A stretch of DNA of 64,000 nucleotides, from positions 124,001-188,000 of the forward strand of contig JACREF010000009.1 in the NCBI GenBank assembly GCA_016218365.1. Reading direction: 5' to 3'. A program made the translations under genes and the position numbers. Shown here piece after piece: positions 25,321 to 30,880 of this stretch (positions within the stretch are counted from its first letter, which is position 1; every line of letters begins with the position of its first letter). Origin of the DNA: Gammaproteobacteria bacterium (GTDB taxonomy: Bacteria; Pseudomonadota; Gammaproteobacteria; SZUA-140). The notes beneath the pieces are model-generated. The model was not told the origin of the DNA. It saw only the letters and a list, made by a program, of their open reading frames with translations, and searched no databases.

Positions 25321-25905
25321 TCACCCGTGGCGGATGACCTGCCCGGTGATGATGTCACGTATCTCAGTGGGCCGCGCCTGGCCGCCGACCGGGCCGTGCA
25401 GGATATAGTCCACGGCATGGGCGCCAAGCCGGTGGCGCACCTGCAAGGCCGTGCGTGCCGCGCGCTGGCCGCTGCGGTTGGCACTGGTCGAGGTCAGCGC
25501 GCAGCTGGTGCGCTGACACAAGGCGCGGGCGATCGGGTGAGCGGTGACGCGCACTGCAATACTGCTGTGCCGGCCACGTAACCACGGCGGGGTGGTGGGC
25601 CTGCATGGCAACAGCCAGGTGTGCGGGCCGGGCCAGCTGGTGAACAGGGTATCCCGCTGGGCGGGGGACAGCCTGGTGATATCCACATACGGGCGCAACT
25701 GCTCGAAGTCACTGGCAATCAGGATCAGCCCCTTGTCGGCCGGGCGCTGCTTGATCGCAAGCAGGTGTTGTACGGCCTGCGGATTCAGCGGGTCACAGCC
25801 CAGGCCAAACACCGCCTCGGTCGGATAGGCGATGATCCCGCCGTGTTCAATGACCTGACTGGCCTGGTTGATCCGCCATAATACAGTACGTGGTAACGGC
25901 TTCAA
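25321..25905 (-). CDS. tsaC: Threonylcarbamoyl-AMP synthase
   Basis: Makes threonylcarbamoyl-adenylate from threonine, bicarbonate and ATP for the t6A37 modification of ANN-decoding tRNAs. The 194-residue YrdC-fold protein has GIIAYPTEAVFGLGCDP, the KQRPADKGLILIA loop and STSANRSGQ, as in E. coli TsaC (190). The only sensible start is a TTG at 25903-25905, which overlaps the purE stop (TTGA), so translation is probably coupled to purE. Confidence 0.93.
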   Translation of the reverse strand: MKPLPRTVLWRINQASQVIEHGGIIAYPTEAVFGLGCDPLNPQAVQHLLAIKQRPADKGLILIASDFEQLRPYVDITRLSPAQRDTLFTSWPGPHTWLLPCRPTTPPWLRGRHSSIAVRVTAHPIARALCQRTSCALTSTSANRSGQRAARTALQVRHRLGAHAVDYILHGPVGGQARPTEIRDIITGQVIRHG

Positions 25906-26408
25906 TCGGAGAATTGTTGCTGTACGGCGGCGTTCTTGGCCGCGATGTCACGGGCAGTGGTCTCGCGCTCGTCCAACAAGCGCTGGGCCAGCGCGGGATC
26001 GGACAGTGCGATGATCTGCGCTGCCAGGTAGGCGGCGTTCTTCGCGCCCGCCTTGCCGACGGCCACCGTCGCGACCGGGATGCCGCCGGGCATCATCACC
26101 GTCGACAACAACGCATCCATCCCCTGCAGCGGGCCGGCATCCAGCGGTACGCCGATGACCGGTTTGACGGTGTTGGCGGCCACCGCACCGGCCAGGTGGG
26201 CGGCCAGGCCCGCTGCCGCGATGAAGACCTGGCAGCCGCGGGCGTCGGCATCGACGACATAGTCATGGGTCTGGACCGGCGTGCGGTGCGCCGAGGATAT
26301 CCGCACCTCGCTGCGGATGCCCAGCGCCTTCAGCGTGTCGATGGTGGTCTTCATCGTCGGCAGGTCGCTGTCCGAGCCCATCAATATTGCAACAAACGGT
26401 GTACTCAT
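25902..26408 (-). CDS. purE: N5-carboxyaminoimidazole ribonucleotide mutase (PurE)
   Basis: Converts N5-CAIR to 4-carboxy-AIR in purine synthesis. The 168-residue protein begins [19 protein letters not shown] with the substrate site, followed by SAHRTP and [10 protein letters not shown]-like turns ([15 protein letters not shown]). Its usual partner purK is not adjacent; instead tsaC overlaps by four bases. purD lies 158 bases upstream on the same strand, with a 129-bp mobile element in between. Confidence 0.95.
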
Positions 26409-26436
26409 AGCCGCATCCTCAGCAGGGTTGGTTTAG

Positions 26437-26565
26437 GGATGCTCTGATTAATTCGCATTGTCGTCATGCCCGCGGAAGCGGGCATCCATAACTACCTGTA
26501 ATACCTGGATTCCCGCTTTCGCGGGAATGACGGCCGTAGTAATTTTTGAATTAATCAGAGTTTCC
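26437..26565. mobile_element. 129-bp MITE with REP-like core, between purE and purD
   Basis: Imperfect 18-bp terminal inverted repeats (26437-26454, GGATGCTCTGATTAATTC; 26548-26565, its complement with two mismatches) are flanked by a 4-bp direct repeat TTAG (26433-26436 and 26566-26569), the expected target-site duplication. Inside are two 8-bp-stem hairpins of the REP type (ATGCCCGC/GCGGGCAT at 26466-26485 and ATTCCCGC/GCGGGAAT at 26509-26528), in mirror orientation, so the whole element is a large imperfect palindrome. No coding capacity. The purD stop codon (TAA) lies within the right-hand TTAG duplication. A transposase in trans is inferred. Confidence 0.85.
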
Positions 26566-27849
26566 TTAGTGTTGTTCGCGGGCGATGGCACGATAGCCGA
26601 TGTCGGAGCGGCAATATCTGCCTTGCCACTGTATTGACTGCAACCGCTGATAGGCGCGGCGCTGCGCCTCGGCGACCGAAATGCCCAGTGCACAGACGCA
26701 CAGCACCCGCCCGCCGGCCGTGATCACCTGGCCATCGTGTTCAGCGGTCCCGGCATGAAAGACCTTGCTGTCGGCGAGTTCGCCGTCCAGGCCGTGGATG
26801 ACATCACCCTTGCGGTAGTGATCCGGATAACCGCCGGCCGCCAGCACCACACCCAGCGCCGGGCGCGGATCCCACTCGATACTGGCCAGATCGAGCTGAC
26901 CGGCGACCGCCAGCTCGCATAATTCAACCAGATCGGATCTGAGCCGCATCATGATCGGTTGGGTCTCCGGGTCGCCAAAGCGGCAGTTGAACTCGAGCAC
27001 CTTCGGCGTGCCATCGGCGGCGATCATCACGCCGGCATAGAGAAAGCCGGTGTAGGTGATGCCGTCGGCCTGCATGCCGTGCACCGTCGGTTCGATGACC
27101 TCGCGCATGATGCGGGCGTGGATGTCGGCGGTGACGACCGGGGCCGGAGAATAGGCACCCATGCCGCCGGTATTCGGGCCGCGGTCCCCGTCATCGCGCG
27201 CCTTGTGATCCTGCGAGGTGGCCATCGGCAGGATATGTCTGCCATCGGACATGACGATGAAGCTCGCCTCCTCGCCATATAAAAATTCCTCGATGACGAC
27301 ACGGTGGCCGGCGGCGCCAAAGGCATTGCCGGCCAGCATGTCGGTGACGGCGGCGATCGCCTGCTGCTCGCTGTGAGCCAGGATCACGCCCTTGCCGGCC
27401 GCCAGGCCATCGGCCTTGACGACGATCGGCGCGCCGCGCTGCCTGATATAGGCCGTGGCGGCCTCGATGTCGGTGAAGGTCGCATAGGCGGCGGTCGGGA
27501 TCCGGTGACGGGCCAGAAAGTCCTTGGCAAACCCCTTGGAACCCTCCAGCTGCGCCGCGGCCTTGGTCGGCCCGAAGCAGCGCAGGCCATGGGCGCGGAA
27601 GCTGTCGACAACGCCCAGCACCAGCGGCGCCTCGGGTCCGACGATGGTCAGATCGATGGCGCGTGCCTTTGCAAACGCGACCAGTGCCGGGACGTCGTCG
27701 GCGGCAATCTCGACATTTTCCACCTTGGGCTCACGGGCGGTGCCGGCATTGCCGGGCGCGACAAAGACCCGGGTCACCCGCTGGGATTGTGCCGCCTTCC
27801 ATGCCAGCGCATGCTCGCGGCCGCCGCCGCCTATGATCAGGATTTTCAT
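26566..27849 (-). CDS. purD: Phosphoribosylamine-glycine ligase
   Basis: ATP-dependent joining of glycine to phosphoribosylamine in purine synthesis. The 427-residue ATP-grasp protein starts [20 protein letters not shown] and contains the ATP-grasp segments [29 protein letters not shown] and [13 protein letters not shown]. It matches E. coli PurD in length (429). Its stop codon abuts the MITE, so the last codon or two may have been changed by that insertion. purH, normally its direct neighbour, is 5 kb away behind two foreign-looking genes. Confidence 0.96.
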
Positions 27850-27985
27850 GGTGCTGTGTTTTCGATGAGGCTATCGGTGAGACTGGATAAAGTGCAAAAG
27901 CATAGCCTATCTGATCCGTCCGGTCATCTGTGTTGCGGTGATCAACATGAGTACTGATAAATCAATAGGATGACCACGAATCGCG

Positions 27986-28014
27986 TTGTTGGTCGAGGGG
28001 TGCTTCTGTATAAT
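27986..28014 (+). promoter_or_regulatory. Sigma-70 type promoter for the large repeat-protein pair
   Basis: TTGTTG (27986-27991) and a perfect TATAAT (28009-28014) are separated by exactly 17 bases. The promoter lies about 70 bases upstream of the first large exported gene and on the same strand. Confidence 0.65.
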
Positions 28015-28084
28015 CGAACTTATATATTCTCCCTCTATCTAAGGAATAGTGATCAGAACCTGGGTAGCAGGCCTTAGGTATCGG

Positions 28085-30880
28085 ATGTTGTTGATGAATC
28101 CCACATCATGGATCGGTTTGATTGTGCTGGGCATGGCCATGATGGTGGGTGGCTCGGGGTTGGCCGCGCCTGTGGCGACAACCGCGTTATGGGAGGCCAA
28201 CGGTCCGGTGGACTCGACGGCGCTGTCCCCTGATGGCAAGACCTTGTATCTGGGCGGCAGCTTCAGCTATGTCGGGCCGCACAGCGGTGCCGCAACTGTG
28301 CTCGAGGCAGACGGCCAGTTTCAGGCCGCGTCCTCGTTGCTCGAAGGCAAGGTGTACAGTGTCGCCGCCGATAGCAGCGGCGGCTGGTATGTCGGCGGTG
28401 ATTTCAGCATAGCTGGTGCCGCTAGAAATCTTGTGCATATCGATCAAACCGGCGTTTTATTGCCATGGAGTCCGGTGGCCAGTCAGCCGGTCAATGTCGT
28501 GCGTTATGTGGGCGGCCAGCTGTTTGTCGGCAGCGATACCGCGTTGACCGAATACAATACCACGACAGGTGCAGCGGTGTGGACGGTGGCCAGCAATGGC
28601 CGGGTGCTGGCGCTGGCGGTGTCCGGCGCGTCGTTGTATGTCGGTGGCGAGTTCACGACCTTGGGTGGTTCCTCGCGGAGTCATCTGGCGAGGGTTGATG
28701 TCTCGGCGGCGCCCGCAACGATAACTGTTGATCCCGCATGGCAACCAGTTCTGGGGTCAGCGTTATCGGTACGCGCATTGGCCATCGATAGCCTTGGTGG
28801 TTGGATATATGCCGCAGGGAGTTTTACCGTCGGCGGCGGCGCGCGCACCAACATCACGCGCGTTGACGCAGCGACCGGTGTAATAGACAGCTGGGGCGCC
28901 TCATGCAGCGGCGGCGCGGTTTATGATCTGGCGCTGGCCTCATCAAGCATATTTGTCGCCGGAGAATTTACCTCCTGCGGCGGGAGCGGTGCATATCTGG
29001 CCGAATTGAATGCGGCGGGTGCACAAACCATCTGGTCGCCGCAGCCTGACGCCCCGGTTCATGCGCTGGCCTTGTCCGCGGGCGGGACAGCGTTGTATGC
29101 AGGTGGTGTTTTCCGGCAGATGACAGCTGCAGGCTTGCTGCGCCATCACCTCGCTGGATTTTTGATCAGTGATGGCATGGTACAGCTCGAGCCAGGCTGG
29201 CAGCAGATGGTCGGTGGTGATGTGCGTGCCTTGTCAGCCGTCAATGGTCCAAGGCTGTTCATCGGCGGTGACTTCACATCGGCCGGAGGCGTGGCGCGCA
29301 ATAACCTGGCGGCGCTGGATGTCGAATCAATCAGCCCGACCTTTGGCAAGGCAAGCCTATGGAATCCATCGGCGAACGCAGCAGTCCATGTCGTGCGGGT
29401 TGAACCCAGCACCGGCTCGATCTATGTCGGCGGGGAGTTTTCTTCGATCGGGTCCGCGTTCCGCACCGGCGTGGCAGCGCTGAAACCAGTGACCGGTGTG
29501 GCCTACAGCGAGTGGAACGCCCGGTTCAATGCCGGCGCCAAGGTCTATGCGCTGGAGTTGTCCAGTCGTGGCACTGTGTTGGCGGGCGGGTTGTTTACTT
29601 CAGTCGTCGGCAGCGCGACCCGCAATAATCTGGTCGAGATCAGTCTGATCGGCGCCCGGATCGAGACCTTGATGATGGATATTCAGGGTGGGGCGGTCCG
29701 CACGCTGCAGATCCTTGAAGGCAGGGTCTTTGTCGGTGGGGACTTCACCGCCATTTCTGGCAAGCCGCGTAACCACCTTGCTGCCGTCAGCATCACAACG
29801 TTGAGGCTTGAAGACTGGCAGCTTGACTGCGATGGCCCGGTGTATGCGCTGCGTTTGACCGCGGACGGGAAGGCGTTGCTGGTAGGGGGTGATTTTACGC
29901 AGGTCGGTACTGTGGCGCGCCGTTATCTGGCGCGCGTCGATCCGCTGAGCCCCGCCGTGGCATCCTGGAATGCGGAGGTCGATGGCGGGCCGGTTACCAC
30001 AATGACTATTTCGGCCGATCGGTCAATACTGTATCTGGGCGGGACGTTTACGACTATTCATTCAAGCGCGTACCCCTCGCTGGCGGCCCTGTACCTGGCG
30101 AATACCACGCCGCTGATTTGGAACCCGATCGTCAACGGGGCTGTCAATGATCTGCGGTTGTCGAATGATGGCAGTAAGTTGTATGTGGCAGGCGCTTACA
30201 GCAGGATGGATGTTAACCGTTCGCACATCGTCGAGACCACCACGTTTCCGTCCGAGACCACCCCGCCACTCACAACCGCCAGCCTGGCCGACAACGTCGC
30301 CTATAACGGGATTACGATCAGACCGGTAGAATTGGTGTGTGATGACGGCATCGGGTCTGGCTGTGCGGCAACCTATTACACCTTGGATGGTACGGACCCG
30401 GATCCTGCCACCTCACCGGAGTATGTCGACGCGATTACGCTCAGAAGCCCCACCACGCTGAAATTCCTGTCAGTTGATTATGCGGGCAACACCGAGTCGT
30501 CGATCAATCAGCGGGTGTATACCATCGAGGCAGATGCCCCGTTGACCACGGCGAGCCCTGAGACCAGGACGTTCAATGACAAGCAGCTCGTCGTGACCTT
30601 GAGCTGTCGTGATGATAGCTCCGGGTGTGCCGCCACCTATTACACCACCGATGGCAGCAAGCCGACGACGGCATCCACTCGCTATACCGGACCGCTCATA
30701 TTGACGCAAACGACGCTGCTACGGTTTTTTTCCGTTGATCAGGCAGGAAATGTCGAGGCTCCAAAGCGCGAGAACTATATCAGTAATCGTGGTGGATTCG
30801 GGGCCGTCGGCGGTCAGCTTCTGTTAGGGCTGCTGGTGATGGTGGTGTGGCGGCAATCCCGTCCGATGGTGCTGCGATGA
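28085..30880 (+). CDS. Large exported beta-propeller-like repeat protein with chitobiase-type C-terminal modules
   Basis: About 931 residues from the ATG at 28085; a GTG at 28049 and an ATG at 28094 are alternatives. A signal-like N-terminus (WIGLIVLGMAMMVGG) is followed by roughly 14 repeats of the pattern Y-V-G-G-[DE]-F-T-x2-G-G-x2-R-x2-L-A-x2-D, resembling delta-60 / DUF5122 propeller repeats. Two C-terminal modules of the chitobiase/hexosaminidase C-terminal type follow (YYTLDGTDPDP and YYTTDGSKPTT, each with flanking Cys pairs). The end is GGFGAVGGQ, then a hydrophobic helix and basic residues, a membrane or sorting tail. It is translationally coupled (ATGA) to a shorter paralogue. A surface-exposed role is inferred; the function is unknown. 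Confidence 0.8.
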   Translation: MLLMNPTSWIGLIVLGMAMMVGGSGLAAPVATTALWEANGPVDSTALSPDGKTLYLGGSFSYVGPHSGAATVLEADGQFQAASSLLEGKVYSVAADSSGGWYVGGDFSIAGAARNLVHIDQTGVLLPWSPVASQPVNVVRYVGGQLFVGSDTALTEYNTTTGAAVWTVASNGRVLALAVSGASLYVGGEFTTLGGSSRSHLARVDVSAAPATITVDPAWQPVLGSALSVRALAIDSLGGWIYAAGSFTVGGGARTNITRVDAATGVIDSWGASCSGGAVYDLALASSSIFVAGEFTSCGGSGAYLAELNAAGAQTIWSPQPDAPVHALALSAGGTALYAGGVFRQMTAAGLLRHHLAGFLISDGMVQLEPGWQQMVGGDVRALSAVNGPRLFIGGDFTSAGGVARNNLAALDVESISPTFGKASLWNPSANAAVHVVRVEPSTGSIYVGGEFSSIGSAFRTGVAALKPVTGVAYSEWNARFNAGAKVYALELSSRGTVLAGGLFTSVVGSATRNNLVEISLIGARIETLMMDIQGGAVRTLQILEGRVFVGGDFTAISGKPRNHLAAVSITTLRLEDWQLDCDGPVYALRLTADGKALLVGGDFTQVGTVARRYLARVDPLSPAVASWNAEVDGGPVTTMTISADRSILYLGGTFTTIHSSAYPSLAALYLANTTPLIWNPIVNGAVNDLRLSNDGSKLYVAGAYSRMDVNRSHIVETTTFPSETTPPLTTASLADNVAYNGITIRPVELVCDDGIGSGCAATYYTLDGTDPDPATSPEYVDAITLRSPTTLKFLSVDYAGNTESSINQRVYTIEADAPLTTASPETRTFNDKQLVVTLSCRDDSSGCAATYYTTDGSKPTTASTRYTGPLILTQTTLLRFFSVDQAGNVEAPKRENYISNRGGFGAVGGQLLLGLLVMVVWRQSRPMVLR

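Follow-up and report, generated by a model that had tools for sequence, protein, structure and literature searches.

Between purD and purE, in a gammaproteobacterial genome of 2.26 Mb (33 contigs, 97% complete), lies a 129-bp stretch with the outward appearance of a small transposable element, set directly against the purD stop codon. It raises the questions of what this stretch is, which enzyme could have moved it, and what the hairpins within it are. Coordinates given without a contig refer to the window, the whole 64,000-nucleotide stretch of DNA that was analysed.

Structure of the purD–purE insertion

The element (26437–26565) is enclosed by two copies of TTAG, found at 26433–26436 and 26566–26569 as the original prediction had them. 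Its 18-bp ends, GGATGCTCTGATTAATTC on the plus strand (26437–26454) and GGAAACTCTGATTAATTC on the minus strand (26548–26565), agree at 16 of 18 positions when read inwards, and the proposed imperfect terminal inverted repeats are therefore real. The interior contains two hairpins running in opposite directions, ATGCCCGC-GGAA-GCGGGCAT (26466–26485) and ATTCCCGC-TTTC-GCGGGAAT (26509–26528). Each is part of a longer unit (26462–26488 on the plus strand and 26506–26532 on the minus strand) with a CGTC tag, an 8-bp stem, a 4-base loop and a CCA tail, and the two units are mirrored with their tags outwards. The mirrored REP-type hairpins of the original prediction can thus be sharpened to a fit with CGTC-1 REPs, which the available part of PMC3733652 defines by a CGTC tag, an 8-bp stem, a 4-base loop and a CCA-type tail. 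The same source describes CGTC elements as mostly HH dimers, and the arrangement seen here corresponds to one if the paper's 'head' is taken to be the tagged side. The element folds better than any of 200 shuffled versions, both as DNA (z = -7.1) and as RNA (z = -6.6). An Rfam search of window positions 25800–28100 gave nothing above gathering score, the best match being DUF3577 RNA (25.4 bits vs 42.6, E 0.067).

The stretch is short, is bounded by terminal inverted repeats, has TTAG to its left and right and contains no transposase gene, and the genome holds multiple copies of it together with an autonomous element with matching ends. It is a MITE, and by mechanism probably an ordinary one.

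The flanking genes, purD (26566–27849, 427 aa) and purE (25902–26408, 168 aa), both have NCBIfam matches and are both on the minus strand, with purE 24 bp from the left TTAG; the gap would be these 24 bp without the element and one TTAG. The TAA stop of purD (minus strand) lies inside the right TTAG, so the proposed insertion at the 3' end of the gene stands as to position, but purD has not been shortened, because target duplication restores the stop and the protein ends at about the same place as in relatives. The element can enter this gap without damage to either gene, the YTAR target coinciding with a stop that is regenerated. Relatives, L037 and L040 among them, have a purE-like start close behind purD and lack this element there (by eye; the nearest genomes belong to other genera). 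In G004 and G008 (L033, L036), relatives that share another genus, purD is closely followed by a CGTC-type hairpin that lacks IS5-type ends.

A family of copies with 4-bp duplications

BLAST of the element against its own genome gives 69 matches, and the objection that there might be no further copies falls away. Matches to the end core CTCTGATTAATTC at two mismatches or fewer number 131 in the genome, against one for the reversed pattern. Pairing of ends on the fetched stretches yielded 46 raw pairs, which were reduced by hand to 40 elements: seven pairs that spanned two elements or were nested in a kept one were dropped, and a decayed A copy with non-identical flanks (C18:39832) was added. 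The set comprises 26 A elements (long and decayed forms included), 12 B elements, one B/A composite and one insertion sequence (IS). B elements are about 150 bp long and have the same ends and duplications without a CGTC hairpin. The composite (G000:C25:28355-28628) combines a left end of type B with a right end of type A, adjoins a gene stop, and may have moved as one unit; it was kept for its CTAA on both sides, and its inner A part (CGCA/CTAA) was dropped.

Identical 4-bp flanks are present in 31 of the 40 elements and absent from nine, a proportion that flatters the family because the pairing demanded the outermost G at both ends and so excluded decayed copies (C23:11446, C11:9629, C30:1325 and C25:101641, for example), leaving the better-kept ones. 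When the right flanks were shuffled 5000 times, a mean of 7.6 and a maximum of 15 of the 40 were identical, and agreement does not extend outwards, as the next 4 bp differ in all 40. Perfect duplications are TTAA (13), TTAG (4), CTAA (2), CTAG (1) and others (11), with YTAR making up 20 of the 31.

Nested insertions supply empty sites. A B element (C30:12687-12835) sits in a TTAA inside an A-type end; with it removed and the flanks closed up at a single TTAA, 44 of 48 bases are the same as in intact A copies. In the relative G009, element L253 lies within a member of another family (by eye). Contigs end within B-type elements in five cases (C1:1-142, C21:1-141, C19:14034-14178, C23:196875-197020 and C26:80732-80875); the repeat thus interrupts the assembly, and the number of copies counted is a minimum.

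An IS5-family element with matching ends

The transposase search of the genome covered PF01609 and PF01797, and the PF01609 profile occurs once. It belongs to an intact IS of 1171 bp (C14:14001-15171) with an uninterrupted 319-aa transposase, which also matches the IS5-family profile NF033581 (349 bits, cut-off 140). A motif R(3)E(6)K, which we take to be an IS5-family mark, is visible in this protein. The ends of the IS are GGAACCTCTGATTAATT(T/C), also written GGAACCTCTGATTAATTT/C, and ATAA stands on both sides. A transposase with matching ends was among the things that the original prediction had looked to, and this one intact element, which shares the MITE ends and has a 4-bp duplication, supplies it. 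Together with the copy family, the 31 exact duplications and the empty sites at nested insertions, it bears out the reading of the 129-bp stretch as a MITE with a 4-bp duplication.

The C14 element is likely to be the mover of the MITEs, judging from sequence. Its own duplication is ATAA, against YTAR in the 20 perfect duplications counted above, and IS5 insertions are described as duplicating YTAR in the available part of PMC10359306. Beyond the 18-bp ends, comparison of the IS with the A and B elements gave no significant match, so the pairing of IS and MITEs draws on ends and target only. An origin of the MITEs by internal deletion of an IS was dropped. Against the IS as mover is that it is single-copy and its MITEs are many. 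The relative G004 has a transposase 64% identical to this one between similar ends. A search for solved structures related to the transposase by sequence found none at E 0.01. A further IS candidate, G274:C101:22793-24030 (L213), was rejected, as it is a 216-aa ORF with a MITE copy on each side.

CGTC units within the family

The genome has 62 CGTC palindromes. Among 50 taken from these, 39 have an end core within 330 bp on both sides, six have one and five have none, although at least one of these five (C22:39141) apparently has an end that has decayed. In an alignment of 17 elements from four genomes, eight of 34 pairs have changed on both sides, three of them in the ends and five in the hairpins. 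Covariation in this alignment is 0.116, compared with 0.047 for shuffled and at most 0.050 for slid versions; the structure was that of the first sequence, a choice that gives it an advantage over the slid versions, and the G012 row is without the left end.

Insertion next to gene stops

Seven of the 40 elements abut a gene stop, and whether this is an excess depends on the null. Non-genic YTAR sites abut a stop at 6 of 47 positions in the window (Fisher's one-sided P 0.37) and at 32 of 477 across all stretches fetched (P 0.02). With the comparison restricted to the perfect-YTAR elements, of which 6 of 20 abut a stop, P against these two sets is 0.09 and 0.002. Stretches were fetched where elements lie, and fewer genes were called in them (203 of 680 YTAR sites are genic, compared with 98 of the window's 145); the null derived from them therefore exaggerates the excess. 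Genes were called by a codon-usage scorer; six of the seven stop-abutting genes, purD included, have family matches, and the C25 gene has none. With P ranging from 0.37 to 0.002, the excess is no more than suggestive, and it might be due to selection against insertions within genes.

CGTC units and their ends in other genomes

Of 369 genomes of the class, 50 contain the pattern GGNNNCTCTGATTAATTC at least once, and the matches listed include none to the control. In 20 stretches fetched by choice from 14 genomes, both ends are present in 16 (ten genomes). One of these (L213) spans two elements, and identical 4-bp flanks are found in seven of the other 15. Their interiors differ: G128 and G277 have CGTC dimers or CGTC-tagged palindromes, G274, G117, G162, G228, G076 and G212 have a different interior of about 90–260 bp, that of G098 is another palindrome, and G369 has almost nothing (41 bp). 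CGTC-tagged palindromes, some with longer loops, also lie within IS5-type ends in G012 (L084) and in the Acidiferrobacteraceae MAG HyVt-429 (L061). The HyVt-429 stretch contains a similar MITE (L061 2471-2660) with a TTAG duplication directly at a gene stop, the gene before it being presumably sucD-like.

Seven copies with IS5-type ends were fetched from G009, and each contains CGTC-tagged palindromes and is flanked by a 4-bp duplication. The same genome has a second MITE family (L238-L243, L245-L248) of about 150 bp, in which CTTGAGAGTRCCGAG ends, unrelated to the IS5-type ends, surround CGTC dimers. There are 46 matches to CTTGAGAGTRCCGAG in G009 at two mismatches or fewer, vs seven for the reversed control. 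Exact 7-bp duplications, one of them AT-rich, flank four of nine two-ended fetched copies, and the other five are without (by eye). CGTC dimers with no end core at three mismatches or fewer occur in G100, G073 and G217 (L230-L232), and G325 has a CGTC dimer with a single end.

Origin and possible role of the element

The REP dimer might itself be the moving unit, spread by a REP-associated tyrosine transposase (RAYT), in which case the outer repeats would be incidental. In favour of this, the genome does encode a RAYT (C22:239364-239894; NF047646, 135.5 bits against a cut-off of 80), together with a Y1 protein whose weaker match (43.5 bits) falls below the cut-off, and neither the five palindromes mentioned above nor the dimers of L230-L232 are accompanied by end cores. 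However, the exact 4-bp duplications are located at the outer ends, 39 of the 50 palindromes sit between two end cores, and the B elements have these ends and duplications with no CGTC hairpin. The RAYT gene, moreover, lies between two copies of a different palindrome that contains GTAG, and the nearest CGTC palindromes found are 0.75 kb downstream of it, in a MITE; RAYT was rejected as the mover. We consider spread of the dimer by a RAYT highly improbable. Another reading attributes the ends and the duplication to chance and accepts only a BIME-like REP pair as the real feature. CGTC dimers do occur alone in other genomes, but the copy family and its duplications contradict this reading, as does the presence of GGNNNCTCTGATTAATTC in 50 genomes of the class, and we give it practically no credence. 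The RAYT gene (L234 1417-1947, G000:C22) has inverted copies of the GTAG palindrome on both sides and forms a REPtron-like unit.

A separate matter is whether the element has been kept as a regulatory RNA hairpin that attenuates or stabilises the purD–purE mRNA, as the original prediction had suggested. Its transcript should fold into one long strong hairpin, and such a structure might either attract a ribonuclease or stabilise the RNA. The strength of the predicted RNA fold, the compensated stems across aligned elements, the hairpins after purD in G004 and G008 and the somewhat frequent position of perfect-YTAR elements at stops are all consistent with such a role. Against it, no terminator or promoter pattern was found in 26350–26650, the stem compensation runs across copies at unrelated sites and so reflects the element and not the purD–purE pair, and placement after stops is equally explained by selection against insertions inside genes. 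An RNA role at this site is hypothetical, and we think it rather unlikely that the element is kept for one.

The element is very probably a non-autonomous IS5-type MITE moved by the C14 IS, with a mirrored CGTC-1 REP dimer as its cargo. The IS transposase would recognise the 18-bp MITE ends, a mobilisation in trans that we infer from the shared ends, and would insert the MITE at AT-rich 4-bp targets, mostly YTAR (TTAA, TTAG, CTAA, CTAG), duplicating them; the REP dimer in the interior would thereby gain mobility. At purD the target would have been the tetranucleotide of the stop codon, with the duplication preserving the stop. Such an insertion would have added 129 bp and one TTAG between purD and purE, which lie on one strand, and the transcript should fold; any effect on the purD–purE mRNA is speculative.

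REP hairpins are common small bacterial repeats, and the available text of PMC3733652 knows of no mobilising enzyme for the CGTC superfamily. CGTC REPs are said there to seem without a dedicated transposase, and the paper asks if other transposases mobilise them. The MITE was correctly recognised in the original prediction; its CGTC cargo is unusual and bears on that question. It may be, and we hold the chances to be about even, that CGTC REPs spread in this bacterial class by enclosure between the ends of unrelated insertion sequences, IS5-type in one system and CTTGAGAGTRCCGAG in a second, with the dimer as a modular cargo that is captured repeatedly. Repeated capture of this kind, if true, would answer the mobilisation question left open in 2013, and the presence in one genome of an intact IS5-family transposase and dozens of MITEs, many with CGTC-1 dimers, makes that question testable.

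Comparison with known systems

The openly licensed PMC literature yielded no report of CGTC REPs as MITE cargo, only PMC3733652 for CGTC repeat or REP names, and, for the end core as a string, matches on other subjects only, as judged by title. The element resembles IS5-family ISs and their MITEs in having a matching intact IS, a 4-bp and mostly YTAR duplication and short inverted repeats starting with GG, but its interior is a REP dimer and not a shrunken copy of the IS. It differs from the GTAG REP/RAYT system in that its units carry CGTC instead of GTAG and the RAYT is flanked by another palindrome pair. The Chunjie MITE of Geobacter, as described in the available part of PMC10969869, is 235 bp at full length and of another family. 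QMITE2 of Coxiella burnetii is likewise a REP-containing MITE, is found mainly in 3' untranslated and intergenic regions, and has inserts listed as stop-codon suppliers, but it has a GTAG REP, 7–11 nt duplications and other ends (PMC5896051, in the part available). Closest in their interior are the CGTC-1 REPs, including neisserial dRS3, which share the tag, 8-bp stem, 4-base loop, CCA tail and mirrored dimers. CGTC-1 dimers in H. neapolitanus all lie within 41-bp palindromes, and the accessible portion of the paper does not call these MITEs and names no IS (PMC3733652). Here, in contrast to the CGTC-1 REPs described there, the units are enclosed by transposon ends with target duplications.
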